Assembly (NCBI RefSeq): GCF_019753045.1
Contig: NZ_JAIELN010000020.1
Coordinates: 62,001 to 126,000 of the forward strand
Direction: 5' to 3'
Source of the DNA: Hyphomicrobium sp.
GTDB taxonomy: Bacteria > Pseudomonadota > Alphaproteobacteria > Rhizobiales > Hyphomicrobiaceae
DNA length: 64,000 nucleotides
Notes under the pieces: model-generated
Databases searched by the model: none
Seen by the model: the letters and a program-made list of their open reading frames with translations, nothing else
Told to the model about the DNA's origin: nothing
Program-made: the position numbers and the translations under genes
Shown here: in pieces, positions 2,292-17,116 of the stretch
Layout: every line of letters begins with the position of its first letter
Position numbering within the stretch: the stretch's first letter is position 1

Positions 2292-2702
2292 TCAGCCCGT
2301 CATAGGCCAATTGCCGAAATCATCGAACTCGCCCGTCTCTTCATTGGACGGATCGCTTGCCGTCTGCCGCCCGGTCAACCGATCAGAAAGATCGGCGAGC
2401 TTTACCGCGTGAGCGGCATCGGCAATGTCGACCTTCCAATCGAGGGACGAGCTTTTCGAGATGCCAGCGAGAAAGTCGGCAACCGCACCAAGATTCTGGC
2501 AGAGCCTATCGAGACTTTGCAGCTCGTACAGGGATTGCGAGCCGCCGAACGCTCCGGCCACGACGAGGTTGCTGATAAGATCCTGAAGATCGCTGGCGGT
2601 ATCCGACATCATCCGCACTTCTTCAGAGACCGTCGTCAAGATCTCCGGTACGGGCACACCTGTGAGCCGCGATCCATCTTGCTGTCGATTGCCGTCGTTC
2701 AT
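2292..2702 (-). CDS. CheT-like chemotaxis protein at end of che operon
   Basis: 136 residues from ATG 2702, which has a GGGGGA ribosome site about 10 bases upstream; longer frames would read into cheD. The protein is mainly helical, with the segment VPEILTTVSEEVRMMSDTASD and an acidic C-terminal tail ending near GEFDDFGNWPM. Downstream of cheD in this gene order, Sinorhizobium meliloti carries cheT, a small protein with a loose resemblance to CheZ, and this gene holds the same place. The acidic tail with an aromatic end could be a response-regulator-binding helix, as in CheZ. Function by position only. Confidence 0.6.
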   Translation of the reverse strand: MNDGNRQQDGSRLTGVPVPEILTTVSEEVRMMSDTASDLQDLISNLVVAGAFGGSQSLYELQSLDRLCQNLGAVADFLAGISKSSSLDWKVDIADAAHAVKLADLSDRLTGRQTASDPSNEETGEFDDFGNWPMTG

Positions 2703-2728
2703 CTCGTCCAGTCCCCCCAAAAAAACGA

Positions 2729-3274
2729 TCAGAAAAGTTCGAGTTCGCCGGCGTTGACATCGACAGTTGCAGCGGGCATCTGCACGGGCTTTTCGATTTG
2801 TGCTGGACCCGCGAGCAAAATTTGCCGCGCACGTCCTGAAACCGGCCAATACTGAATGCGCCGCCCCTGTAAACCGCCGGTGCTGCCACCGACGTAGGAA
2901 ATACCTTCGGCTTTCAGAAAGCGTTGCGCGAATTCCGCGTTGTGCTTTCCGATGTCGGAGTGAGAGCGCACCGTCCGGGCGCCTCCGAACAATTTCGCCT
3001 CCAGCCGATCACGCCGGCCACCGGCCTTCAGGAGGCCGTTGACGAGCATTTCCATCAGATGGACGCCCATGCGTTCGTCTGCTCCCGACGTACCGTTGAG
3101 ATTGCCCGGAAGCAGGAAGTGGTTGATACCGCCGACTCCCGCGAGCGGATCGCGAATACATGCAGCGATGCAAGACCCGAGGATCGTCGTCACCATGACA
3201 TTCCGGTCGCTGGTGACGAAGAACTCGCCTTGAATTATGTGGACCCGATTTTCCGTCTTTACGGCGGACGTCAT
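2729..3274 (-). CDS. cheD: Chemoreceptor glutamine deamidase CheD
   Basis: 181 residues. CheD deamidates glutamines in chemoreceptors and may act with a CheC-like phosphatase elsewhere. The catalytic Cys35 is in LGSCIAACI and His52 in GGINHFLLP; both are the expected family residues. The LFGGART segment and the IGKHNAEF core are also typical. The start overlaps the cheY stop by 4 bases (ATGA), so translation is coupled. Full length and intact. Confidence 0.95.
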
Positions 3275-3660
3275 GTCAACTTACCGACAACAGCTTCGAT
3301 GCACGTTTTGAGCTGTGGCACAGCGAACGGCTTAGCGAGGAAGTTATTGAGGCCCCACTTCTTGCCTTCGTCGATAAGAGCTTTGTCGCCCTTACCCGTT
3401 ACAAGGATAAAGCCGACCTTGCTTGTGGGCGCATGCTGGCGCAGCGCACGCAAAAGCTGAATGCCGTCGATCTTGGGCATGTTGTAGTCCGAAATGACGA
3501 GATGGCAGGGCGCCGTCATCATCATCTTCAGCCCCTCTTCGCCGTCTTTGGCGACTTTGAAGTTCTTCAACCCGATCTGATCAAGACCGTCGGTTAGAAG
3601 CGCCCGGCTGACGGACGTGTCATCAACGACCAGAATCTGCAATTGCTGCATTGAGGGCAT
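3271..3660 (-). CDS. cheY2: Response regulator CheY (second copy)
   Basis: 129-residue single receiver domain with Asp13-Asp14, phospho-acceptor Asp58 ([11 protein letters not shown]), Thr88 and Lys110 (LAKPF). It should carry phosphate from CheA to the flagellar switch FliM. In rhizobia with this operon order, the CheY lying between cheB and cheD is the main motor-binding one and the upstream CheY acts as a phosphate sink; that division of labour is inferred here from position. Its start is 12 bases after the cheB stop. Confidence 0.93.
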
Positions 3661-3672
3661 GATTTTCGCCTC

Positions 3673-4716
3673 CTAGTGTTTCTTCTTCATTGACGTTTCT
3701 GCAATTATCGCTGCCGCAAGGCGGTCGAGGGACAGCTGATTTTCAACGGCACCGACTTCGAATGCCGCTTTCGGCATTCCATAGACGATGCAGCTGGATT
3801 CGTTTTGGCCGAATGTTTTCGCACCAGCCTGACGCATTGCGAGCAGGCCCGCCGCGCCGTCCTTTCCCATGCCGGTCAGGATGACGCCGACTGCGTTCCC
3901 CTTGCAAGAGCGCGCTACGGAGTTGAAGAGCACGTCCACCGACGGGCAATGCCCGTTGACACGTTCGCCGCTCTTCAAACGGCACCGAAGATCCGGCGTG
4001 ATTTCGAGGTGGCGCGTTCCTCCCGGCGCGAGAAAAACGTTTCCCGGCAAGAGCTTTGCGCGGTCGGTCGCTTCCTGAACCTTCGGTGCGCAGAGTCTAT
4101 CGAGACGGTCAGCAAAGCTGTGCGTGAATGCCGGCGGCATGTGCTGAGTTATGACTGTCGGCGGACAATTCTCGGGAAATCCGGACAGCAGTTCCAGAAG
4201 AGCTTCAACGCCACCAGTCGAAGCGCCGATCGCAAGCACGCGGCCGTCAGACACATACGACTCATGTGCCGATTGGCTGCCTCTTGCCTGCCGATGGCTG
4301 TCTTCCGTTCTGACCAGTGGCTTCACGCGGGCAGAGGCTGCGATCTTGACCTTGTATGGCAGCTCTTCGAAGCTGTGCTCATTTCCCGGACGCGGTTTTT
4401 CTATGCAGTCGATCGCGCCCATCTCGAGAGCCTTAAGCGTTTCCTCGGCACCGCGTTTCGTCAGGGTCGAGACCATGATGACCGGCATCGGTCGAAGCCG
4501 CATGATCTTTTCGAGAAATTCCAGGCCGCTCATATTCGGCATCTCGACGTCGAGCGTGACAACATCAGGGTTGAGCGCCTTGATGGCCTGACGCGCCTGA
4601 AGCGGATCCTCGGCCTCGCCCACAACGACGATATCGGGATCCTTTGTCAGCGCTGTGGCGATCAGCCCGCGCATGGTGGAGGAATCGTCGACGACGAGAA
4701 CTCTAACTTTTCTCAT
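3673..4716 (-). CDS. cheB: Protein-glutamate methylesterase CheB
   Basis: 347 residues: a receiver domain (Asp10-Asp11, Asp56 in [11 protein letters not shown]), a linker, then a methylesterase domain with catalytic Ser166 (GASTGG), His192 (TQHMPP) and Asp286 (GMGKDG). Phosphorylated CheB removes methyl groups from chemoreceptors, opposing CheR. The start overlaps the cheR stop (ATGA). All catalytic residues are present. Confidence 0.96.
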
Positions 4717-5606
4717 GATGGCTTGCCGCCCTTCCTGCGATAGCTGGTGATGCCATCGCTGGACAACATTGCGGCTGCGGGTCCGGACATACGTTCGGAA
4801 TGTCCGATGTACAGCGCGCCCTCGTCACGCAGCAGACGCGCCAAACGGTTCCAAATCATGCTTTGCGTATCGCGGTCGAAATAAATGACGACGTTCCTGC
4901 AGAATATCGCATCGAACGGGCCGCTGAACGGCCAGGTCCCCATCAAATTGAGCTCACGAAACGAAACGAGAGAGCGTGCCTCGTCGGAGATTTTCAGCAT
5001 CGTGCCGCGGCTGTCACCTGGCACGGGCTCGAACCATTTGGAGCGCAGATCCGGCGGCACATCACGCACCTCCTCTTTCTGATACTCCCCCTTCCTTCCA
5101 TGCGCGACGACGTGAGGATTGAGATCAGTCGCAAGGATGCGGACATCGAGCGATGCAGCGTTGGGGATGACCGAGAGCACCGTCAGCGCCATGGAATATG
5201 GCTCCTGTCCGGTCGAGCACGCAGCCGACCAAAGCCGGACGCGATCGCCCCGGCGAGCATGCTCGGCAAGCGGCTCAATGATCTTGGTGCGCAAATGCTC
5301 GAAGTGATGCGGCTCGCGAAAGAAGCGCGTCACATTAGTGGTTAGCGCTGCGATCATGCTGCCGCGCTCGTCTGCATCGGCGCGTACCGTTGCGCAGTAA
5401 TCTGTAAATGTCGCGATCCCTCGCGCCCGCAAACGCTTTGCAAGCCGCGAATATACGAGAGTCGCCTTCGACTGCGGCAGGTCAATGCCGGCTTCCGCCT
5501 TCGCGATGTCTGCTATCTCGCGGAAATTTGCGGCCGAAAACGCGAACTCACCTGTTACGAGAGCTCCGGAATCGCGCGACGAGGAACTCCCCAATGCCGA
5601 TGTCAT
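4713..5606 (-). CDS. cheR: Chemoreceptor methyltransferase CheR
   Basis: 297 residues. An N-terminal helical CheR domain contains the conserved [17 protein letters not shown] stretch at about residues 89-105; the C-terminal Rossmann methyltransferase has [15 protein letters not shown] for S-adenosylmethionine binding and [10 protein letters not shown]. It methylates receptor glutamates during adaptation. The upstream receptor ends in GWEEF, a likely CheR/CheB docking tail, so substrate and enzyme are encoded together. Overlaps cheW and cheB by 4 bases each. Confidence 0.96.
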
Positions 5607-6070
5607 GCGGCCGCCTTGGCGCTTATCGGCAGCACGCTTTCCAGCGTGACGATGCTGATCATGCGGCCTTCAACAGCATAGACGCCTTTGACAAAAGTTT
5701 TTGCCAGATCCGACGCGACGTCAGGCGTCGGCTGCATGGAGGCTTCGGAAGTGGTCAGGATGTCGGAAACTGCGTCCACCAGCAGGCCAACGACCTGCTG
5801 ATAGACCTGCACGACGATAATGACGCTTCTCGCTGTCGGTTCGGTGAGGCCGATACCAAACCGCATGGCGAGATCGACGATCGGAAGAACTGCGCCGCGC
5901 AGGTTGATTACGCCGCGCACGTAAGCGGGGGCGTGCGGCAACGGCGTTGCGGGCGTCCAACCACGGATTTCGCGAACACCCATGATGTCGATGCAGAATT
6001 CCTGCGCTCCCACGCGGAAAGCGACGAACTCGCGGTTTGCGGAGTTGGCTGATGAACCGACGTCCTGCAT
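5603..6070 (-). CDS. cheW: Chemotaxis coupling protein CheW
   Basis: 155 residues. CheW bridges receptors to CheA in the signalling array. The core [17 protein letters not shown], the [17 protein letters not shown] segment and a C-terminal [17 protein letters not shown] are typical. Two ATGs lie 6 bases apart; the GGAGG site sits 9 bases before ATG 6070 but only 3 before ATG 6076, so I take 6070. The upstream ATG would overlap the cheA stop by one base. Confidence 0.94.
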
Positions 6071-6075
6071 GATCA

Positions 6076-8244
6076 TTATCCTCCAGTTCCATAGTGCACG
6101 TCGCCGCCGAGCTGCTCTTCGAACGAACCCGTGACCAAAGCGTCCACGTCGAGAATAAGTGCTACGCGGCCATCGCCGAGAATCGTGGCGGCCGCGATAC
6201 CTTCAACTGTGCCGTAGTTTGCTTCGAGACTTTTGATGACGACTTGGCGCTGATCCTGGATCGAGTCGACCAAGAGAGCGTTGCGCGCGCCGCCGCCGGT
6301 CTCGACCAGTATCGCCACGCTGCGTTCCGGGTCTGCCGGCGTGTCGCGGAAGCCCATCTGCGTTCCGACATCAATGAGCGGTACGAAAGTATTGCGGATG
6401 GCCATGACCCGGCTGTCTGCGCCGATGGCATGAATCTCGCCTTTCTTCGGCTTCAATGTCTCGACAATCGCCGTCAATGGCACGACGAGCGTCTGGCCTG
6501 CGACCGACACGGCCATGCCGTCGAGGACGGCGAGCGTCAGCGGCAGACTCATCGAGAACGTCGAGCCAAGCCCCGGTCGCGACGAGATCGATATGCGGCC
6601 GCCGAGTGCCAAGATCGAGCGCTTGACGACGTCCATGCCGACGCCGCGGCCTGAGATGTTCGAGATGGTGGAGGCGGTCGAGAAGCCAGGTAGGAAGAGA
6701 AGATTATCGATATCGCTATCGGAAAGCTGCGCGTCGGGCGATATCAGGCCCTTCTTGATCGCGGATGCGCGTACCTTCGGCCGATTGATGCCGGCGCCAT
6801 CATCCGAAATCTCAATGACGATCCGGCCCGAACGGTGAGCAGCGCTCAAACGAACGTTCCCTTCGGGGGACTTCCCGGCTGCAATGCGCTCCTCGGGCGA
6901 TTCGATGCCATGATCGACCGCGTTGCGGATCATGTGCGTCAGCGGCTCCGCCAGACGCTCCACGACGGTTTTGTCGACTTCCGTCGCTTCGCCGTCGGTT
7001 TTCAGGCGAACTTGCTTGCCCGTGGCATCCGCCACTTCACGCACAATGCGCGACATGCGCTGAAAGAGCGGCTTAACAGGCTGCGCGCGGATCGCCATCA
7101 CGCTTTCCTGTATCTCGCGCGTCAGCTGCTCCAGTTCTTCGAGACCGATGATGACCGATGATGAACCGGCGAAATTCGCTTCGATGACGCGCTGAGACAG
7201 CATCGCCTGATTGATAACAAGCTCGCCGACGAGATTGATCAGCCGGTCGACACGATCGAACTCGACGCGGATGGTCGTCTGCGTCTGGACGGCGACGGCT
7301 TTTGACGCCTCTGCCACTTGAGGCGCAGCAGATGTCTCGCTCGCAATCACTTCGACTGGCGCGGGGGCCGGTTGTACATGTTCTTCAGAATTCGTTTCGG
7401 TCGCGGCCGGTTCGGCTTCTGCCGGGGGCGCGTTGCCGAGCGCCTGCGCCAACAGCGCGGCAATAGCTGCGTCCGAAACTTCGGGTTGACCATCGGCTTC
7501 GACTGAGATTTCGGCTTCTCCGTCGACGAATTCGAACACCTCGCGAACGGCCTCGATCGGTGCTTCCGATGAAAGCTTGATGTTCCAAGAGAGATATGCG
7601 CCGTTGGGATCGATCGTATCGAGATCCGGCACTGCGGACACATCGCAGCTGACTTCGGCATTGCCCAGTCGCGAAAGCTCTCGGACGATCAGTACCGTCT
7701 CGTTTCCATTGAGGTAGAGTTCCGGCCGAGGCGTGAAGCCGACACGATATTCATGTACTGGCGCCGCGGCGGGCTCCGGCGCCACATCGGGAAGACCGAA
7801 ATCTATGACCGTCGGCTGGAACTCGATGACTTCCTCGACTTCTTCCTCGCCTTCGACTGTCGTCAGCGCTTTAACGTCTGCAGCGACGCCCGCGTAGCTC
7901 GACTCGTCGATTTCCTTGCCGTCACGAGATGCCGCCACGAGATCGGCCAGAACGTCAGCGGCGCGGAGCATCGCTTTCATTACATCGGCGGACGGGTGAA
8001 GCTTGCCGCTTCGCACGTAATCCAGTGCCGTTTCGAACGTATGCGCGAATTGCACGAGCGCCGTCAGCTTGAAAGCGCCCGCGCCTCCCTTGATCGAGTG
8101 GACTGCGCGGAAGACGGCATTGACCGTTTCGGAATCGGCGTTGCCTTCGTCCATTGCAAGCAAGCCGAGTTCCATTTCCGAGAGTTGCTCTTCGCACTCC
8201 TGGAAGAACGTCTGGCGGATTGCGGCCATCGTATCGACGGTCAT
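6076..8244 (-). CDS. cheA: Chemotaxis histidine kinase CheA
   Basis: 722 residues. P1 phosphotransfer domain with His49 in [13 protein letters not shown] long acidic, Pro/Ala-rich P2/linker region spans roughly residues 120-320. It is followed by the P3 dimerisation helices ([16 protein letters not shown]) and the P4 ATPase with the N box ([11 protein letters not shown]), G1 (DDGAGI) and G2 ([10 protein letters not shown]). A CheW-like P5 domain closes the protein. It phosphorylates CheY and CheB. All catalytic boxes are intact. Confidence 0.97.
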
Positions 8245-8267
8245 CGTTTATGCTCTTTTATTTCGAA

Positions 8268-8633
8268 TTAGGCGGCGACACGGCGGATAGCGGCAATCAG
8301 CTTCGTCGGTTCGAACGGCTTTACGATCCACCCTGTCGCACCAGCTTCCTTCGCGCGCGTTTTCTTCGCGGCATCGCTCTCGGTGGTGAGAACAAGGATC
8401 GGCACTCTGCGGTAGCGGCTATCTTTCCGCACAGCCTCGATAAGTCCGAAACCATCCATCTTCGGCATGTTGATGTCGGTTACGATAACGTCCGGCATGG
8501 ATGTCTGAAGCACCTCCAGGCCATGAACGCCGTCAACAGCCTGCACGACATTGAAGCCCGCTTCTGCGAGTGCCATTTTCAGCATGTCGCGCATCGTCCG
8601 GGAATCGTCGACGGTTAGTATCGTTTGCATCAT
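8268..8633 (-). CDS. cheY1: Response regulator CheY (first copy)
   Basis: 121-residue single-domain receiver: Asp9-Asp10, phospho-acceptor Asp53 (VTDINMPKMDG), Thr83/84 and Lys105 (VKPFEPTKL). It closely follows the canonical CheY pattern. In the S. meliloti operon this upstream CheY mainly drains phosphate from CheA and CheY2; the same role is inferred from its place between the STAS gene and cheA. The start overlaps the STAS gene stop by 4 bases (ATGA). Confidence 0.93.
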   Translation of the reverse strand: MMQTILTVDDSRTMRDMLKMALAEAGFNVVQAVDGVHGLEVLQTSMPDVIVTDINMPKMDGFGLIEAVRKDSRYRRVPILVLTTESDAAKKTRAKEAGATGWIVKPFEPTKLIAAIRRVAA

Positions 8634-9052
8634 GGGGAAAATCCTTCGAGAAGAAATTGGTCGCCCGACAATCCAACGAGCGCGATCGTGTCGAGAAGAG
8701 CGGCGCTCGGATTTGTCACCGCATAGCTCTGGCCATCGGCGCGCCAGGTGTTTGCCGCGGCCATCAAAACCTGCAACGCCTGCACGCCGACCCGGTTCAC
8801 TTGACTCGCGTCAACGACCAGCGGAGCGCCACGACGAGCGACCAGCAGATCCTTGAGGGCGGCCGCCGACGACGAATCGCATGAATCCGGGAGGACGAGG
8901 TTGGCGTCTTCAACGGGGCTTGGCGTTTCGGCGGCCACTTCCATTATTTGCGCGACGTCCGCACCATCCTTACGGTTCGACTTTGCAGTCTTACGCGCCG
9001 CGCTCTTCGTACGGGGACCGTTGGCGCCCGCTTTCGCTTTAGCGCGCGCCAT
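8630..9052 (-). CDS. STAS-domain protein of the che operon
   Basis: 140 residues. Residues 1-30 are strongly basic (Lys/Arg/Ala-rich, KAGANGPRTKSAARKTAKS), then an acidic linker leads to a STAS domain at about 50-138 with APLVVDASQVNRVGVQALQV and a C-terminal LVGLSGDQFLLEG. STAS domains bind partner proteins or nucleotides. Small STAS-like proteins occur at this place in alphaproteobacterial che operons but their role is not settled. The start overlaps the mcp stop by one base. The basic tail is unusual for this fold. Confidence 0.8.
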   Translation of the reverse strand: MARAKAKAGANGPRTKSAARKTAKSNRKDGADVAQIMEVAAETPSPVEDANLVLPDSCDSSSAAALKDLLVARRGAPLVVDASQVNRVGVQALQVLMAAANTWRADGQSYAVTNPSAALLDTIALVGLSGDQFLLEGFSP

Positions 9053-11199
9053 TAAAATTCCTCCCAGCCGGCGTCAGAGGAGGCCACATTGCGCCGGCCC
9101 ATGCCTCCGGCAGCAGCAATCTTCGACTTTGCAGGCGCGCGCTGCGGGCGGGGCAGCGACTTCGGCTGTTCGCGCCGGGTCGACATTTCGATGACCGTCT
9201 CGTCGCCTGTGCTGAAGCGGCTTACGAGGCGAACGAGATCTTCGGTCTGTTGAGCGAGCGTTTGCGTTGCAGCCGTCGCTTCTTCGACCATCGCGGCGTT
9301 CTGCTGCGTGACCTGATCCATCTCGTTGACGGCCGTGTTGACTTGCTCAAGTCCGTGCGCCTGTTCGTTGGCGCTGGTGGCGATGTCCGTGACGATGGTG
9401 TTGATTTCCGCGACCTGGGTCACGATACGAGTCAACGCCAAGCCGGTCTCACCGACGAGCTGAACTCCCTGTGCGACCTGTCCGGTCGAAGCAGAAATGA
9501 GACCTTTGATCTCCTTTGCCGCCTCGGCAGAACGCTGCGCCAGGGCTCGCACTTCGGATGCGACGACCGCGAAGCCTCGGCCAGCGTCGCCGGCACGTGC
9601 TGCTTCGACGCCAGCGTTCAAAGCGAGCAGGTTCGTCTGGAACGCGATCTCGTCGATGACGCCGATGATCTGACTGATCTGCTTCGACGAACTCTCGATG
9701 CCGTTCATCGCCGAAATTGCTTTGCGAACGATTTCTCCGCTCTTCTCGGCGTCTGCCTTGGCAATCGACACCGTTTCCCGAGCATGGGTAGCACCGCGAG
9801 CCGTCTTGTTGACGGTATCCGTGATCTCCTTAACGGCAGCTGCCGTCTGCTCAAGACTTGCGGCCTGGTTTTCCGTGCGCCGCGAAAGATCGTCGGAGGC
9901 TTGCGATATTTCCTCGGTACCGAGCTTGATGCTGGCGGCACCTTTTTTCACGAGCTCGATCGTGCTTCTCAGCTGGGAAGCCGCAGAGTTGAAGTCTGTC
10001 TTCAGCTTCGCGAACTCCGGAGCGATGTCGGCGTATACCGAGGTCTCGAGGTTTCCTTGCGCGAGTTCCGACAGCGAGGTTCCGAGCGATTGAACCACGA
10101 CATTGATCTGGCCCTCCGCCTCGATCTTAGAGGCTTGCGCGGCTTCGAGCTGACCCATCATCAGGTTCATCTGGCTGATGATAGCCTCGTACTCCGGGAT
10201 GACCTTCTCGGTAATCCGATGCGTGAAGTCGCCGCTCGCTATACGCTCGGCCGCGCTGGTGAACGCGTCCATGAAGCGCTCATGCTCTTTCGCATAGTGC
10301 TCGCTCTGCTCCTGCTGCTGTTTGGCTGCATCGACGGCGGCGTCGGTCATCGACTTATTTTCGATGACGGCTTCCTTGAAGCGTGCGAGCGCACTCGCGA
10401 TCATGCCGTTTTCGTTGCTGTCGGCGAGATACGGGACTTCTACGCTCAAATCCTTATGGCTGATTTGATCCATCGCGCGGACCAGGTTCGAAAGCCGGAG
10501 CGAAATGCCCTTGGCGATGAGACCGACCATGACAACCGCAGCGACGGTTGCCGCGATCAGCAGCGCGAGCATCCGGTAAAGGGAGGAGCGTGCGGCGCTG
10601 GCGTGATCTTCAGCGAGACGCTCAAAAAGGTCGCTGACCTGACCAGCAGACGCTCCGACGAGGCTATTGGCGTCGCTCAGTGATGCAATCACGTCGCTAC
10701 CAATCGCGGCCCGCCGATAGTCGGCCGCTTTGACCTTCGCGGCGATCTGATCGAGCGTCGTCAAAAGCCTGATGCTCGTGTCGCCGAGCGCATTCTTCGA
10801 TTCGCTCGAAGCATCAGACGCCATGAGTTTATTCAGCGAGCCGCGGAACTTCTCCGTGGTTCTCCGCAACACTGCGTAATTAATTGCAAGCTTGGTCTGG
10901 TCGTCTGCCGGACCCGCGGTATCAAGTGTGGATTTCAGATCAAGTAGCGCCTGCTTTACTCCCGGCAAGCGCTGCACAATCAGGTCTTGCGCGTGGAAAC
11001 TGGCCGGCGCGGCATCCGAAGCGAGACCAGATGAGCTGGCGATCTGATCCAAAAGATCGACGCCGAGACGCACTCGTTCGTCCCCTGACCGGGCGTTCTC
11101 GAGAGCATTTACGCTCGGCTGCACTCCGAGACTTTGTGCAATGTCCGAGAGTTTTGCCAACTCGCCGTTGCCCGAACCTGAGTTTTCATCGGCGGACAT
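9052..11199 (-). CDS. Methyl-accepting chemotaxis protein, separated from its first membrane helix
   Basis: Main open frame of 715 residues: a periplasmic-type helical sensor (1-205), one membrane helix (about 210-230), HAMP region(s) (231-340) and a long signalling domain with the hairpin-tip sequence [15 protein letters not shown]. It ends in GWEEF, a likely CheR/CheB tether. The ATG at 11199 has no good ribosome site. The same frame continues upstream through one TGA (11206-11208) into a membrane helix and a proper start at 11382, so this is the larger part of a receptor broken by a nonsense codon. It may be made by re-initiation 6 bases after the TGA, or by read-through. Confidence 0.9.
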
Positions 11200-11205
11200 C
11201 TTCGT

Positions 11206-11382
11206 TCAAACCGCCGAAGCCAACCGGCCCCCATCGATTTCGCGGTCAAGCGTGCGGATCTGCACGAGCTGGGTTTGTGTGTAGAGGTAAAGCTGGATCA
11301 GCGATGGAATTAAAAATACCGCAGATATCAGGGCAAGCCGGCGCGGCATCGACCATTTGCTATTGATATATCCTATGACCAT
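11206..11382 (-). pseudogene. Detached N-terminus of the chemoreceptor (58 codons, then in-frame TGA)
   Basis: ATG 11382 has AGG 7 bases upstream, with GAGGAAA further up. The 58 codons encode a basic start (SKWSMPRR), a membrane helix (LALISAVFLIPSLIQLYLY) and the beginning of a periplasmic helix (LDREIDGGRLASAV), the usual start of this receptor family. Codon 59 is TGA in the same frame as the downstream receptor ORF; a TGG (Trp) at this place would restore a 776-residue receptor. A single-base change or a base-calling error would explain it. Confidence 0.75.
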
Positions 11383-11904
11383 AGCTGAACCTGTTTCCTC
11401 GGAGCGTTGATCTTGTTTCTAGCGGTGCGATTCGGCGTCGGCGCGGGCGCACGCAATGCCGTTGATGAATTCGAGTTGCAGAGACTCTCAAAGAGTGGGG
11501 AGCTGACGCGAGCAATCGCCCCCAAAGCAGCGGAGGCTGCATCGGTGGAAATGATCGGCGATCGTTAGATCTTTCGGGACTGACGAAAGAAGCGGCCGCG
11601 AATTATCGTGCCCCATCGGTAGTTCCTGCTTTTTTCTAAAAGCCTGGAACATGTCGGATCTTGCCGACTCAGCTGCGCGGCGTCATGCCTATGATTTACC
11701 AATCAAGCAGCTGTGCACGATAATTAGTCCGAAAAACTGTCGAATTGGTTTACGAAACTATCGCCGCTGCGTGTTTATTTGAAACAATCCAGCACGGGCT
11801 ATTTATTGACTCGCCTGTATTTCCGCGTGCATTTCAGACGTTAATTTCCATTTATTATTGCGCCACGGACGGTTCGGTGGCGCTATTTTCCCCGATATCT
11901 TCGG
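11383..11904. other. Intergenic region before the che operon
   Basis: About 520 bases, more AT-rich to the left of the PilZ gene, and expected to hold the che promoter. A possible 51-codon + strand frame runs from TTG 11413 to TAG 11568; it has no recognised homology and only a weak GGAG upstream. An inverted repeat at 11622-11650 (GTTCC, GCTTTT, loop, AAAAGC, GGAAC) would form a strong hairpin. No tRNA or other gene is visible. Confidence 0.5.
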
Positions 11905-12339
11905 CTATTTCCTCACCCATGAAAGCCGCCTCGGCGGCCTGACATAGCTAAGACCGGCTATCGCATCATCAATGCGAATGAGCCTGCATTTCACAATCAA
12001 ATCGTCACCCGGGATCTCTAAATAAAATTCGCCATTCAGCCGGTGAGGCTCGGGGAGTTTAATTCGCGCTCCTCCGTCCGATAAATCCAGGACTGTTCCG
12101 GAAAGCCTTTGCCCATCGCCAAGTTCGATAACGGCGGCTTTGAATACCGGCCGCCGGCCAAATTTGCGCAGATCTCGGGAACGCTCTATTGCCAAAGCTC
12201 TTCTCGGTATTTTAATTCTGTTAACGACCCTTCTCCGAAAGCCGTACATCAGCGTGAGAAAACAAAGCCGTAATAAGGTGCATATAATTGTGCGGTTCTT
12301 GATCGCAGTACGTGGATTCCGTTTCTGTTCTACAGGCAT
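11905..12339 (-). CDS. PilZ-domain protein
   Basis: 144 residues from ATG 12339 (GGA five bases upstream); a shorter start at 12249 is possible. A basic N-terminus precedes a PilZ domain from about residue 60 with VLDLSDGGARIKL, the DxSxxG motif. The upstream Arg motif is weak: GRRPVFK gives RxxxK rather than RxxxR, so c-di-GMP binding is uncertain. It lies next to a GGDEF-EAL gene and probably belongs to a c-di-GMP circuit acting on motility. The last codons contain a GC-rich inverted repeat followed by TTT, possibly a terminator. Confidence 0.8.
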   Translation of the reverse strand: MPVEQKRNPRTAIKNRTIICTLLRLCFLTLMYGFRRRVVNRIKIPRRALAIERSRDLRKFGRRPVFKAAVIELGDGQRLSGTVLDLSDGGARIKLPEPHRLNGEFYLEIPGDDLIVKCRLIRIDDAIAGLSYVRPPRRLSWVRK

Positions 12340-12589
12340 TTCATCCGTTGGCGGACCATATCAGCTCTATACGATTCGCCGGCTGAGCGAGCTAATCTCG
12401 CCTTAAGACATTACGTTTAATTGTTGGAATGGTGGGCCGTCACCGATTCCAGTCGGGGACGGAGGCATAATGCTAACCTAGATTGCCAAAGAAGGTTTTA
12501 GAATACGGAATTGCCATTAAGGGCTGCCTCTCGGTCGAGGGCTATCCGAAGGGATCAACTACGACCGGTATAAAAAGCGGGGCGGAACA

Positions 12590-14737
12590 ATGCGAGGCTC
12601 ATCGGTTAAAGGCGTCATGGCTTTCAATCTCGACGGACTTGCCTATAACGCTCCTGTTGCAAAAGGGGGTCGCAAGAAGGATGCGACCAGTCCGTATTTC
12701 ACCACCAGCTCGGATGCGAAGGCCTTCGTGTCCGCTCTTGATCAGGTGGGTATCGTTTCGATCACGGATCCCGAGGGCCGCATCCTTCATGCGAACAGCG
12801 AGTTCTTGCGCATCAGCGGCTACAGCATTGGAGAAGTCGTCGGCAAAGACCATTCGATTCTAAATTCCGAGCACCACCCAAAGAAATTCTGGGCTGACGC
12901 CTATGGAAAACTTCGCAAAGGCGAGACTTGGCGCGCACCCGTGAAAAATCGGGCGAAAGACGGTTCGTTCTATTGGGTTGATTCTATCATCGTTCCGCTC
13001 AAGGGCAGAGATCGCCAGAGCAAGGGCTTCCTGTCGTTTCAGATCGACATCACGACTGCCGTCACGCTTCACATGGCACTCCAGGAACGCAACGCCCTGC
13101 TGCAGGCCGTGGTCGACAGCTTCCCCGGCGGCCTCACAGTCTTCGACCGCGACCTTCGCTTAATCCTCTGCAACAGAAAGCAGCGGGAGCTGCTCGAATA
13201 TCCGGATTCTCTCTTTGAGAACGCTCCTCCAACGCTGGAGGAGCTTTACCGCTTCAACGCCAATCGCGGAGAATACGGTCCGGGGGATGTCGAGGAACAG
13301 GTGCTCACTCGTCTCGAGCGCGCGCGCAAGGGCGAGACACATATCTTCGAGCGGCAACGGCCCAACGGAACCTACCTTGAGATTCGCGGCACGGCATTGC
13401 CCGGCGGCGGGTTCGTGACTGCCCACCTCGATGTGACGGAGCGGAAGCGGTATCAGGAAACTATCGGGCGGCTTGCGCACCAAGATGTTCTGACGGGCCT
13501 GCCGAACCGCGCACTTTTCCAGGAACGCATCCGGGTCGGTCTAAAGCAGGTACAGAACGGGTCATCCTTGGCGCTGCATTGTCTGGATCTCGACCGGTTC
13601 AAGTCCGTCAACGACACGCTTGGTCATCCTATCGGAGATTCTCTGTTGATCGCCGTGGCTGAAAGGCTTCGGGCCGAGATCCGAGAAACCGATACCGTCG
13701 CGCGGCTCGGCGGCGATGAATTCGCAATCATTCAAATGGCCCCCCGATCAATCGAAGAAATCGAGGCTCTTGCAAAGCGGATCATCGCCGCCTTCGCAGA
13801 GCCATTCGTTCTCGAAGAGAATACGGTCTCGATCGGAACAAGCATCGGCATTGCCGTCGCACCGTCCGACGGCATCGAAGTCGGCCAACTGATGATGAAT
13901 GCGGACATGGCCCTTTACCGGACCAAATCGGTCGGCAGAGGCACATTCGGTTTCTTCGAACACTCGATGCATGAACGATTGCAGACGCGGCACCAAATCA
14001 TCATGGGGCTGCGCGAGGCGATCGCGAACAGCAAGTTCGAGCTTCACTATCAGCCGATCGTGAACGTCAAAACGCGCAAGATCGTCGGCTGCGAGGCATT
14101 GATACGCTGGTCGCATCCGGTAAGGGGGCTCATTCCGGCGTCCGAATTCATTCCGATCGCCGAAGAATGCGGGTTGATTGGTCAGATCGGCGATTGGGTG
14201 CTGAAAACAGCATGCGCCGAGGCGAGCCTCTGGCCTGACGACATCTGGGTTGCAGTCAATATTTCTCCTGCCCAGTTCCGCGGCCAGGATCTCGTGGAGA
14301 AGGTCACGAACGCGTGCCGAGGGCTTCCCCTCTCGCGTCTCATCCTCGAGATTACTGAGACGCTCCTCATGAAAGATCGGGATGTTGCATCGGACACACT
14401 CGAGCGTCTGCGCAAAATGGGCGTCCGATTTGCGATCGATGACTTTGGGACGGGCTTCTCGTCACTCAGCTATCTGCAGAGCTTTCCGTTCGATAAAATC
14501 AAAATCGATCGCTCGTTCGTCTCTGCCGTCGCGAACGTCAAGCGCTCCGCGACGCTGCGGCGATCCATTATCCAACTCGGCTACAATCTCGGCATGACAA
14601 GCGTCGGCGAAGGCGTCGAAACCGAACAACAGCTTGATCGTTTGCGGGCCGAAGGGTGCGTAGAGGCGCAAGGCTTTCTCTTTTCGCGGGCGGTGCCCGC
14701 CGCAAAGCTTCGCACGCTATTCTCCAAGCCTCTCTGA
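12590..14737 (+). CDS. PAS-PAS-GGDEF-EAL c-di-GMP enzyme
   Basis: 715 residues, no membrane segment. PAS 1 lies at about 45-155, PAS 2 at 165-285, GGDEF at 295-455 and EAL at 470-705. The cyclase motif is intact (RLGGDEFAII, 374-378) with the inhibitory I-site RETD at 365-368. The phosphodiesterase motif CEALIRW (502-504) and DDFGTGFSSL are also intact, so both making and breaking c-di-GMP are possible, with the PAS domains sensing a cytoplasmic signal. GGCGGA precedes the start. Flanked by two PilZ genes, the likely readers of its product. Confidence 0.95.
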   Translation: MRGSSVKGVMAFNLDGLAYNAPVAKGGRKKDATSPYFTTSSDAKAFVSALDQVGIVSITDPEGRILHANSEFLRISGYSIGEVVGKDHSILNSEHHPKKFWADAYGKLRKGETWRAPVKNRAKDGSFYWVDSIIVPLKGRDRQSKGFLSFQIDITTAVTLHMALQERNALLQAVVDSFPGGLTVFDRDLRLILCNRKQRELLEYPDSLFENAPPTLEELYRFNANRGEYGPGDVEEQVLTRLERARKGETHIFERQRPNGTYLEIRGTALPGGGFVTAHLDVTERKRYQETIGRLAHQDVLTGLPNRALFQERIRVGLKQVQNGSSLALHCLDLDRFKSVNDTLGHPIGDSLLIAVAERLRAEIRETDTVARLGGDEFAIIQMAPRSIEEIEALAKRIIAAFAEPFVLEENTVSIGTSIGIAVAPSDGIEVGQLMMNADMALYRTKSVGRGTFGFFEHSMHERLQTRHQIIMGLREAIANSKFELHYQPIVNVKTRKIVGCEALIRWSHPVRGLIPASEFIPIAEECGLIGQIGDWVLKTACAEASLWPDDIWVAVNISPAQFRGQDLVEKVTNACRGLPLSRLILEITETLLMKDRDVASDTLERLRKMGVRFAIDDFGTGFSSLSYLQSFPFDKIKIDRSFVSAVANVKRSATLRRSIIQLGYNLGMTSVGEGVETEQQLDRLRAEGCVEAQGFLFSRAVPAAKLRTLFSKPL

Positions 14738-14793
14738 AGACCTTTGTACTCCGTGCGTCCAACGACTTCGATCTTATTCGAGAGAACCGACCT

Positions 14794-15660
14794 GTGCTGA
14801 GGACGCTGCTTAAGATTTCGGAACCACGGCGGTCGTCGTTACCGCAAACGCGGATTTCCGACGAACCGGATGAAGGCAATGCGCTTTTCGAAGCGCTCAT
14901 CTGTGAATTTCATTGGACGGCACTGCAGATCGGGGGCATCGCGGCTTGCATGAATGCAGCGCTTGCTCTCGGACGCACATGGATACTTCGATCATGCAGC
15001 AACTTGGTCCCCGTCGAGCCGCCAATTATCAATGTCGCACTACGGGCGTGGCAGGAGATCGGAATTTCCGGCGAGCTCGCCGCTTCGATCAGCAAGATCT
15101 ATTTCGATCTGTTGGACGCCAAGAAGCTCGCGATGCCGCTTATAGACCAGGCCGGCGCCTTTGCCGGCTCAGGCATATCGCTCGCGAAGCTGGAGCAAAT
15201 TACAGCGCTGTGGCGGAAGCTGGCGGAAGACTGCAAAATTGCGGTACGCCGACTTGAACCTGAGACACGCTGGCGTTTCAACGGCATCTACACCGGAAAC
15301 GCGCTCATTCTCAGCAAATTCTTGCAGGAAGCGCAGTCGGGCTCGTACAGTTGCGTCAATCAATTTGGCGAAGCCGCCATCCCTGTTTTGCCACAACGTC
15401 GCAAGACACCGAGATATGTCCTGCTGCAACCGTGCAAGATCAGCGACAAAGGTGGCAGCTCCATTGCATTTGCACGCGATATCTCGAAGAGCGGCATCGG
15501 CCTGGATTGCGAGCGGGACCTCGCATTGAAGGAGCGGGTTCTCATCGAACTTCGCAGCGGTCAAAAGTTGAAGGGGACTGTCGTCTGGGCCCGAAACAAG
15601 CGGGTCAGCGTACAATTCGATGAGCCATTGGCCGACGGCGACCCGTTGATAGCACGTTGA
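14794..15660 (+). CDS. PilZ-domain protein with unknown N-terminal domain
   Basis: 288 residues from GTG 14794, preceded by GAGAG; earlier in-frame starts would lie inside the EAL gene. Residues 1-190 form a helical domain of unknown kind, with hydrophobic helices around GGIAACMNAALALGRTW. The C-terminal 95 residues are a PilZ domain with RKTPR (RxxxR) and DISKSG (DxSxxG), both c-di-GMP-binding motifs intact. It follows the GGDEF-EAL gene on the same strand by 56 bases and is probably co-transcribed as its effector. Confidence 0.8.
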   Translation: MLRTLLKISEPRRSSLPQTRISDEPDEGNALFEALICEFHWTALQIGGIAACMNAALALGRTWILRSCSNLVPVEPPIINVALRAWQEIGISGELAASISKIYFDLLDAKKLAMPLIDQAGAFAGSGISLAKLEQITALWRKLAEDCKIAVRRLEPETRWRFNGIYTGNALILSKFLQEAQSGSYSCVNQFGEAAIPVLPQRRKTPRYVLLQPCKISDKGGSSIAFARDISKSGIGLDCERDLALKERVLIELRSGQKLKGTVVWARNKRVSVQFDEPLADGDPLIAR

Positions 15661-15692
15661 GCGTTCGTATTTAGAGATTTGCGGCGGGCGCT

Positions 15693-16880
15693 CTATTCGT
15701 CGGCGATAATACGATTGCGGCCTGCCGCCTTTGCTTCGTAAAGCTTGGAGTCGGCACGATCCAAGAGCGCGTAGCAATCTTCGCCAGGACGTAATTCTGC
15801 AACGCCGAAGGACGCGGTGACCTTACCGATTGGCTGCCCCGTTCTGTGGTGCATCCATTTCTTGCTTTCAAGCTCGCCCCGGATCTGTTCGCCGAGGTTC
15901 TTCGCGCCTTCAAGTCTGGTTTGCGGCAAAAGGATAATGAACTCTTCTCCGCCATAGCGAGCGGCCGTATCGCGGCCCTTGATGTTTTTCGAGAGAAGCT
16001 CGGCGAAGCGCCTCAATATCTCGTCGCCCACGGCATGCCCGAACGAGTCGTTGATCCGCTTGAAATGATCGACGTCGGCCATGATCAACGAGAGTGCGCC
16101 CTTCGTTTCATTGGCGGTGTCAACCTCTTTCGGAAGGTGGATCTCCAACCAGTGCCGGTTCTTCAGCGACGTGACGGCATCAAGCATTCCCAATTTGTGG
16201 CTATCGCTGAGGCTGATCCTTAACTTTTCGATCTGCTGCTGCGATTGCTGTAAGCGCGTATTGAGATCACGCACTTCATTCTGAACTTTCTTGTTCTCGC
16301 TGATCAGCATCTGGATTATCGAACGGACGCGTTCGGGCGACGTCGACGCTACGAGCGTGTTGCTAACCTTCGTCAGGGAGTCGGAATGCGATCCACTCAG
16401 CTCGAGATGCTCCTTCAGTAGGCGCATCACTGAAAAGACTTCGTCGTCCAGTTCCTGTCCGACTTTTTCGAGACGCTCCGACAGTCGCTCGTCAATTTGA
16501 CGATCCGCAGCAATTCCGCCGCGGAAGAACTGGAGGGCCCCCCAAGCGAAGGACATGCATCCCGCTGCGACAACTCCAAACAAGGTGGCTAGAGCAAACG
16601 GATGAGAACCTAGCCGCACGATGCGGCCTCGCGAATCCACTTCAGCAATTTGCCAAGAAACGTCCGACCAGCTCGATATCGCGGAAACTTCGATCTGCGT
16701 GTGCATCAGCAGATGCCACAGCAAAAAGGTTGAGCCGATTACCGCGATACTTCCCAACATGATGATGGCAGACGAAGGCAATTGCTTAAGTGCAGATGCG
16801 CTCATAATCTTGCTCAGCTCTAAAGTGGCGAGGGGGTTAGCCTCGCTGAAAAGAACATCTGCCTGAGATTTATCAAACAT
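15693..16880 (-). CDS. Membrane-bound diguanylate cyclase (GGEEF)
   Basis: 395 residues: two membrane helices (about 38-58 and 96-118) around a short 35-residue periplasmic loop, a long coiled coil (125-225, ending QQSQQQIEKLRISLSD) and a GGDEF domain from 230. The active motif is GGEEF at 310-314. The usual inhibitory RxxD five residues before it reads KGRD, so product inhibition is probably lost. It makes c-di-GMP, perhaps for the nearby PilZ proteins. Convergent with the PilZ gene to its left; the 236 bases on its right, before fliQ, hold nothing recognisable. Confidence 0.9.
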   Translation of the reverse strand: MFDKSQADVLFSEANPLATLELSKIMSASALKQLPSSAIIMLGSIAVIGSTFLLWHLLMHTQIEVSAISSWSDVSWQIAEVDSRGRIVRLGSHPFALATLFGVVAAGCMSFAWGALQFFRGGIAADRQIDERLSERLEKVGQELDDEVFSVMRLLKEHLELSGSHSDSLTKVSNTLVASTSPERVRSIIQMLISENKKVQNEVRDLNTRLQQSQQQIEKLRISLSDSHKLGMLDAVTSLKNRHWLEIHLPKEVDTANETKGALSLIMADVDHFKRINDSFGHAVGDEILRRFAELLSKNIKGRDTAARYGGEEFIILLPQTRLEGAKNLGEQIRGELESKKWMHHRTGQPIGKVTASFGVAELRPGEDCYALLDRADSKLYEAKAAGRNRIIADE

Positions 16881-17116
16881 TCGGTTTCCGAGCGGAAACC
16901 TTGGGCAGATTTAGTGACGATCCGCATGGCGCCGGATTTTTTCCCGATGTCGTCAAGCGAGAATGACTAACGACGCTCCACTCAATGGAACGCATGCTTC
17001 AGCCTACGGACCATGAGTCGTCATTAGGCGCAATACTCTTATTGATGATTTCTGTGATTGCCCAGAGAACTATCGTTTGCAAAAAGCATTTTTAATTGTC
17101 ATCTGACGCACGCCAG

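Follow-up and report, generated by a model that had tools for sequence, protein, structure and literature searches.

A probable recent nonsense mutation interrupts the receptor gene heading a che operon in one Hyphomicrobium strain

The first gene of the che operon in the window, that is, in the whole 64,000-nucleotide stretch of Hyphomicrobium sp. DNA analysed here, probably carries a very recent, strain-level nonsense mutation that arose by a single substitution. On the minus strand, the frame that opens with the ATG at 11382 runs through 58 codons, ending in GRLASAV, and meets a TGA at 11208-11206; it then continues through ACG AAG and, with the frame unchanged, enters a 715-residue ORF that begins with the ATG at 11199-11197 and extends to 9052. 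When the TGA is passed over, a 776-residue receptor is obtained, and no second stop or frame change occurs in this 776-codon frame. The features described in the first-pass annotation were all found. A purine-rich ribosome-site region (GAGGAAACAGG...; 11383..11400, minus strand) precedes the full-length start, and these 18 bases are identical in the two nearest relatives (loci L002 and L003) and similar in the next three. The N-terminal piece, comprising the 58 codons and the TGA (11206..11382, minus strand), is conserved in 15 orthologues and includes hydrophobic segment 1 (residues 15-35), as delimited by hydropathy. The TGA itself (11206..11208, minus strand) is codon 59 and is followed by an A, giving the context UGA-A. 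The 715-codon frame from Met62 (9052..11199, minus strand) carries the remaining helical sensor, hydrophobic segment 2 (residues 266-298), HAMP and the MCP signalling domain, and the two Pfam matches of the read-through protein, PF00015 (E 1.3e-52) and PF00672 (E 7.2e-11), both lie within it. As the sequence stands, this TGA leaves the two hydrophobic segments on separate chains; a periplasmic sensor framed by two membrane helices in a single chain would require either read-through of the TGA or an error in the sequence there.

The gene resembles a transmembrane MCP at the head of a che operon in its HAMP and MCPsignal domains, its two hydrophobic segments and its neighbours. Downstream on the same strand, Pfam searches identified a STAS-domain protein (8630..9052), a CheY-like single-domain response regulator (8268..8633), CheA with Hpt, dimerisation, ATPase and CheW-like domains (6076..8244), CheW (5603..6076), CheR (4713..5606) and CheB (3673..4716). 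The ATG of the STAS-domain gene overlaps the receptor's own stop (TAATG), so translational coupling between the two is probable; a PHROGs scan of the STAS-domain protein returned no match. The receptor differs from such an MCP in two respects, namely that its frame is broken at codon 59, in this genome (G000) only, and that its sensor has neither a Pfam family nor a significant match among solved structures. The sensor, about 230 residues between the hydrophobic segments (window positions 10432-11382), was modelled by AlphaFold as all-helical with a mean pLDDT of 79.2, and residue 59 lies close to the end of the long first helix in this model. A Pfam search of the sensor part yielded no family at E 0.001. 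Comparison with solved structures by sequence gave nothing significant, the best match being an unrelated coiled coil (E 0.097), and comparison by fold gave none at 0.001, the best match being the periplasmic sensor domain of a histidine kinase (E 0.26).

Searches for orthologues covered 41 genomes with the read-through protein as query and 22 genomes of the genus with the sensor region. The sensor region was matched in 16 of the 22, with no match in the other 6, and a stop within the region was found in G000 only; of the eight loci that have named records, the nearest is that of Hyphomicrobium facile DSM 1565. The first-pass annotation had asked whether Trp is conserved at the site of the TGA, and it is: all 15 other genus orthologues carry Trp in this column (14 in the alignment, plus the metagenome-assembled G017, which reads TGG there and is frameshifted further on), and the G000 codon is one substitution away from the Trp codon of the relatives. 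A sense codon is thus found in the intact orthologues, as for a young nonsense pseudogene. The 58-residue piece is identical to that of the close relative G003 at 51 of 58 residues, with 6, 3 and 17 nucleotide differences at the first, second and third codon positions, respectively; since it is conserved at the protein level and its start codon is common to the relatives, the piece is more than a product of chance. The possibility raised earlier that homologues might naturally start at the position of ATG 11199 is ruled out, as none of the 15 orthologues begins there and the 58 residues upstream are conserved. Given the Trp in all 15 orthologues, this ATG is the internal Met62 and no natural start; Met occupies the position in 12 of the 15 aligned sequences, that of the window included, and Val, Ile or Leu in the rest. 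Judging from these alignments, the full-length receptor is the ancestral form.

The age of the lesion was then approached through the changes on the G000 branch, counted as unambiguous changes over 773 codons; G003 and G001 (H. facile) served as the sister genomes, and three additional genomes as outgroups. The G000 branch carries 19 non-synonymous changes, the stop included, and 35 synonymous ones. In the C-terminal signalling part (after column 335), 1 non-synonymous and 15 synonymous changes were counted; in columns 60-335, which span the sensor and the second helix, the numbers were 16 and 18, compared with 8 and 12 on the common branch of the sisters and 6 and 8, and 5 and 3, on their own branches. 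The dN/dS values of G000 against the two sisters were 0.108 and 0.112, that between the sisters 0.074, and those of the sisters against an outgroup 0.122 and 0.123. Beyond the stop itself, the G000 branch thus bears no clear sign of decay or relaxed constraint, which makes an old pseudogene very unlikely. A stop in a gene that is otherwise under purifying selection on this branch must be very young, a base error or leaky. A dN/dS of 0.11, within the 0.07-0.12 of the relatives, and the ratio of 1 to 15 in the C-terminal part are what a gene functional until very recently would show; a leaky gene that still functions would also fit the unrelaxed constraint.

Whether the stop is an isolated event was evaluated by comparing about 1.59 Mb of G000 (4.52 Mb) with 0.8 Mb of G003 (4.62 Mb). 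ORFs of G003 gave 279 alignments at 70% identity or more, of which 237 with a coding-like substitution pattern were kept and 42 were dropped. Among the eight commonest outcomes, the TGG codons of G003 corresponded in G000 to TGG in 1,074 cases, to TAG in 3 and to TGA in 1, which is codon 59 of the receptor; the opposite comparison, for which 245 of 286 alignments were retained, gave 1,086 TGG and 2 TGA, again among the eight commonest outcomes. Stops occurred in 13 of the G000 ORFs, many apparent ones falling within the initial 25 codons or further upstream, in stretches lacking a coding pattern, and the sequence before the stop was clearly coding-like only in the receptor and in an ORF at C5 143440-141815. 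Clearly coding-like flanks on both sides of the stop were found in 2 of the 237 ORFs in G000, the receptor included, and in at most 1 of 245 in G003, and three further cases, opposite the G003 ORFs at 166633, 97449 and 267506 of the compared stretch, were ambiguous. Such coding-flanked stops are rare in both genomes, so one nonsense allele is unsurprising. A second set of G000 ORFs, based on alignments at 85% identity and 90% coverage, by coincidence also numbered 237; here TGA was the commonest stop, ending 119 ORFs, 19 of them as TGA-A. The single TGG to TGA case and the frequency of TGA as a terminator indicate that UGA is a normal stop here and that the event is single in the compared part, for which a genome-wide reading or suppression of UGA as Trp is therefore ruled out.

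Several alternatives to a genuine nonsense mutation were weighed. The one that deserves most attention, although we consider it clearly less probable, is that the consensus base at this one position is wrong, or belongs to a minority variant in a mixed population, in which case the receptor of the living cells would be intact. A stop in one genome only, within a gene free of other decay, is what such an artefact predicts, and the same data fit it about as well as they fit a nonsense mutation. The assembly, however, does not appear error-rich (35 contigs, 97% complete), and candidate frameshift splits against G003 amounted to 6 rows in 4 ORFs, equally few as the 8 rows in 7 ORFs of the reverse comparison. 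Termination followed by re-initiation, which would yield a functional two-piece receptor made of the 58-residue helix and the 715-residue body from ATG 11199, appears improbable. The ATG lies 6 bases past the stop, and because the authors of PMC6728339 expect re-initiation to fall with distance, so short a gap would favour it. Against this, no ribosome site was seen ahead of ATG 11199, in agreement with the first-pass annotation; Met62 lies within the full-length protein as an ordinary residue, at which no orthologue starts; the arrangement occurs in one genome only; and the 715-residue body has hydrophobic segment 2 but not the sensor's export signal, so that normal export of the sensor would not take place. 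Programmed insertion of selenocysteine at the UGA can be given almost no weight. G000 does encode a tRNA-Sec (L061, G000:C17:90314-90405; 78.4 bits against a gathering score of 47, with ARAGORN in agreement), and selenoproteins are therefore probably made somewhere in this organism; since at E 0.001 the family search matched every one of the 14 control genomes, 5 of them above the cut-off, the cut-off together with ARAGORN was taken as decisive. As a selenoprotein, the receptor would be expected to have Cys or Sec in its homologues and a SECIS element after the UGA. The 15 other orthologues have Trp and none has Cys, the 69 bases from the stop onwards fold unremarkably (z -1.41, 19 of 200 shuffles as good), and no Rfam family reached its gathering score in 2500-17000.

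Read-through of a leaky UGA-A, misread by tRNA-Trp at a low rate so that the ancestral Trp is restored and some full-length receptor is made, is more credible than these last two but still unlikely. In its favour, the stop stands at an ancestral Trp position and in the UGA-A context, and two tRNA-Trp(CCA) genes were found in G000 by ARAGORN, while an anticodon-arm pattern matched once in 19 of the other 21 genus genomes and not at all in two (pattern matches, without an ARAGORN check). The chromosomal gene lies shortly before ORFs that we take, from their resemblance, to be nusG and rplK. The second gene belongs to an array Pro(CGG)-Trp(CCA)-Met(CAT) (L092 4245-4531, G000:C4), outside the window and within a prophage whose head genes are of Mu type (Pfam Mu gp36, Mu F-like, virion morphogenesis). 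The 361-base array region was matched over its full length in G000 itself only, among 41 genomes, and in a search of phage records with this region 471 records gave partial, tRNA-like matches, none covering 80%. By hand numbering, the prophage tRNA-Trp has the pair U11-A24, its 24th base being that of the Hirsh suppressor, and the chromosomal one has C11-G24, so the prophage gene might raise the rate of misreading. In E. coli, an A after UGA is reported to make misreading by tRNA-Trp especially likely (PMC5289835, citing Engelberg-Kulka 1981), and the Hirsh change G24A in tRNA-Trp enables UGA read-through (PMC13092985). Taken together, the UGA-A context and an additional prophage tRNA-Trp(CCA) with A24 make partial read-through possible, and the receptor resembles a known leaky UGA in both features. 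It differs in that, across the 237 coding-like ORFs and among the eight commonest outcomes, nowhere else does a TGG codon in G003 correspond to TGA in G000, and the standing of TGA as the commonest stop likewise speaks against read-through. In functional read-through the stop would be conserved among relatives, and here it was found in 1 of 16 genomes. The prophage tRNA, in which hand numbering places an A at position 8, is moreover irregular and perhaps inactive. PMC13092985 also reports A9C and/or G24A in 2,414 of 3,438 natural short-stem bacterial tRNA-Trp genes, so A24 alone says little; and the short-stem mechanism of that paper is not applicable, because both G000 tRNAs fold with 5-base-pair anticodon stems and a short stem is absent from both genes. 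That the suppressor-like A24 of the prophage tRNA-Trp(CCA) renders the Trp-codon nonsense mutation in the receptor nearly silent, the phage thus supplying a suppressor that shields a host gene, is a highly improbable extension of this idea. The first-pass annotation had listed a nonsense mutation, re-initiation, read-through and a base error without choosing among them; the present comparisons favour the first and the last, and gave no positive support to a two-piece receptor or to functional read-through.

We therefore return to the young nonsense mutation as the preferred reading. Single-substitution nonsense alleles are young pseudogenes in bacterial genomes, and the receptor gene resembles them in having one stop, an otherwise open and constrained frame and a distribution limited to one genome, with no point of difference apparent. 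If the stop is real, translation would begin at ATG 11382 and in most cases end after a 58-residue membrane peptide, and little or no full-length receptor would be produced. A restart at Met62 could occur; the protein so made would be without the first membrane helix, so that the sensor would not be placed outside the membrane in the normal way. Input through this receptor would probably be lost or strongly reduced, with the downstream che genes and the three other receptor genes remaining. Both the loss of function and the recency of the mutation are what we infer from these comparisons. G000 has three MCP-signal genes besides the one described, and that a single strain has probably lost one of its four MCP-type receptors is of little significance as it stands. 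A gene call of 715 residues at this locus would omit the first membrane helix, which is a point of caution for annotation. Should the TGA prove genuine and the receptor nevertheless be produced, the gene would be a natural reporter of UGA misreading by tRNA-Trp and of how a phage-borne tRNA affects it.

Two further lesions were observed in the course of these comparisons. The G017 orthologue (L014 ~1500-1545, G017:C23) is frameshifted at a GC repeat near codon 240, so copies of the receptor broken in or near the sensor number 2 of 16 in the genus (G000 and G017), with different lesions; as G017 is a metagenome-assembled genome, its frameshift may also be an error. In G000, the ORF at C5 ~143440-141815 (L154), whose C-terminal part is presumably transglycosylase-like, has a TGA at codon 66 where G003 has TCA, which could reflect either a start extension or a second nonsense change.
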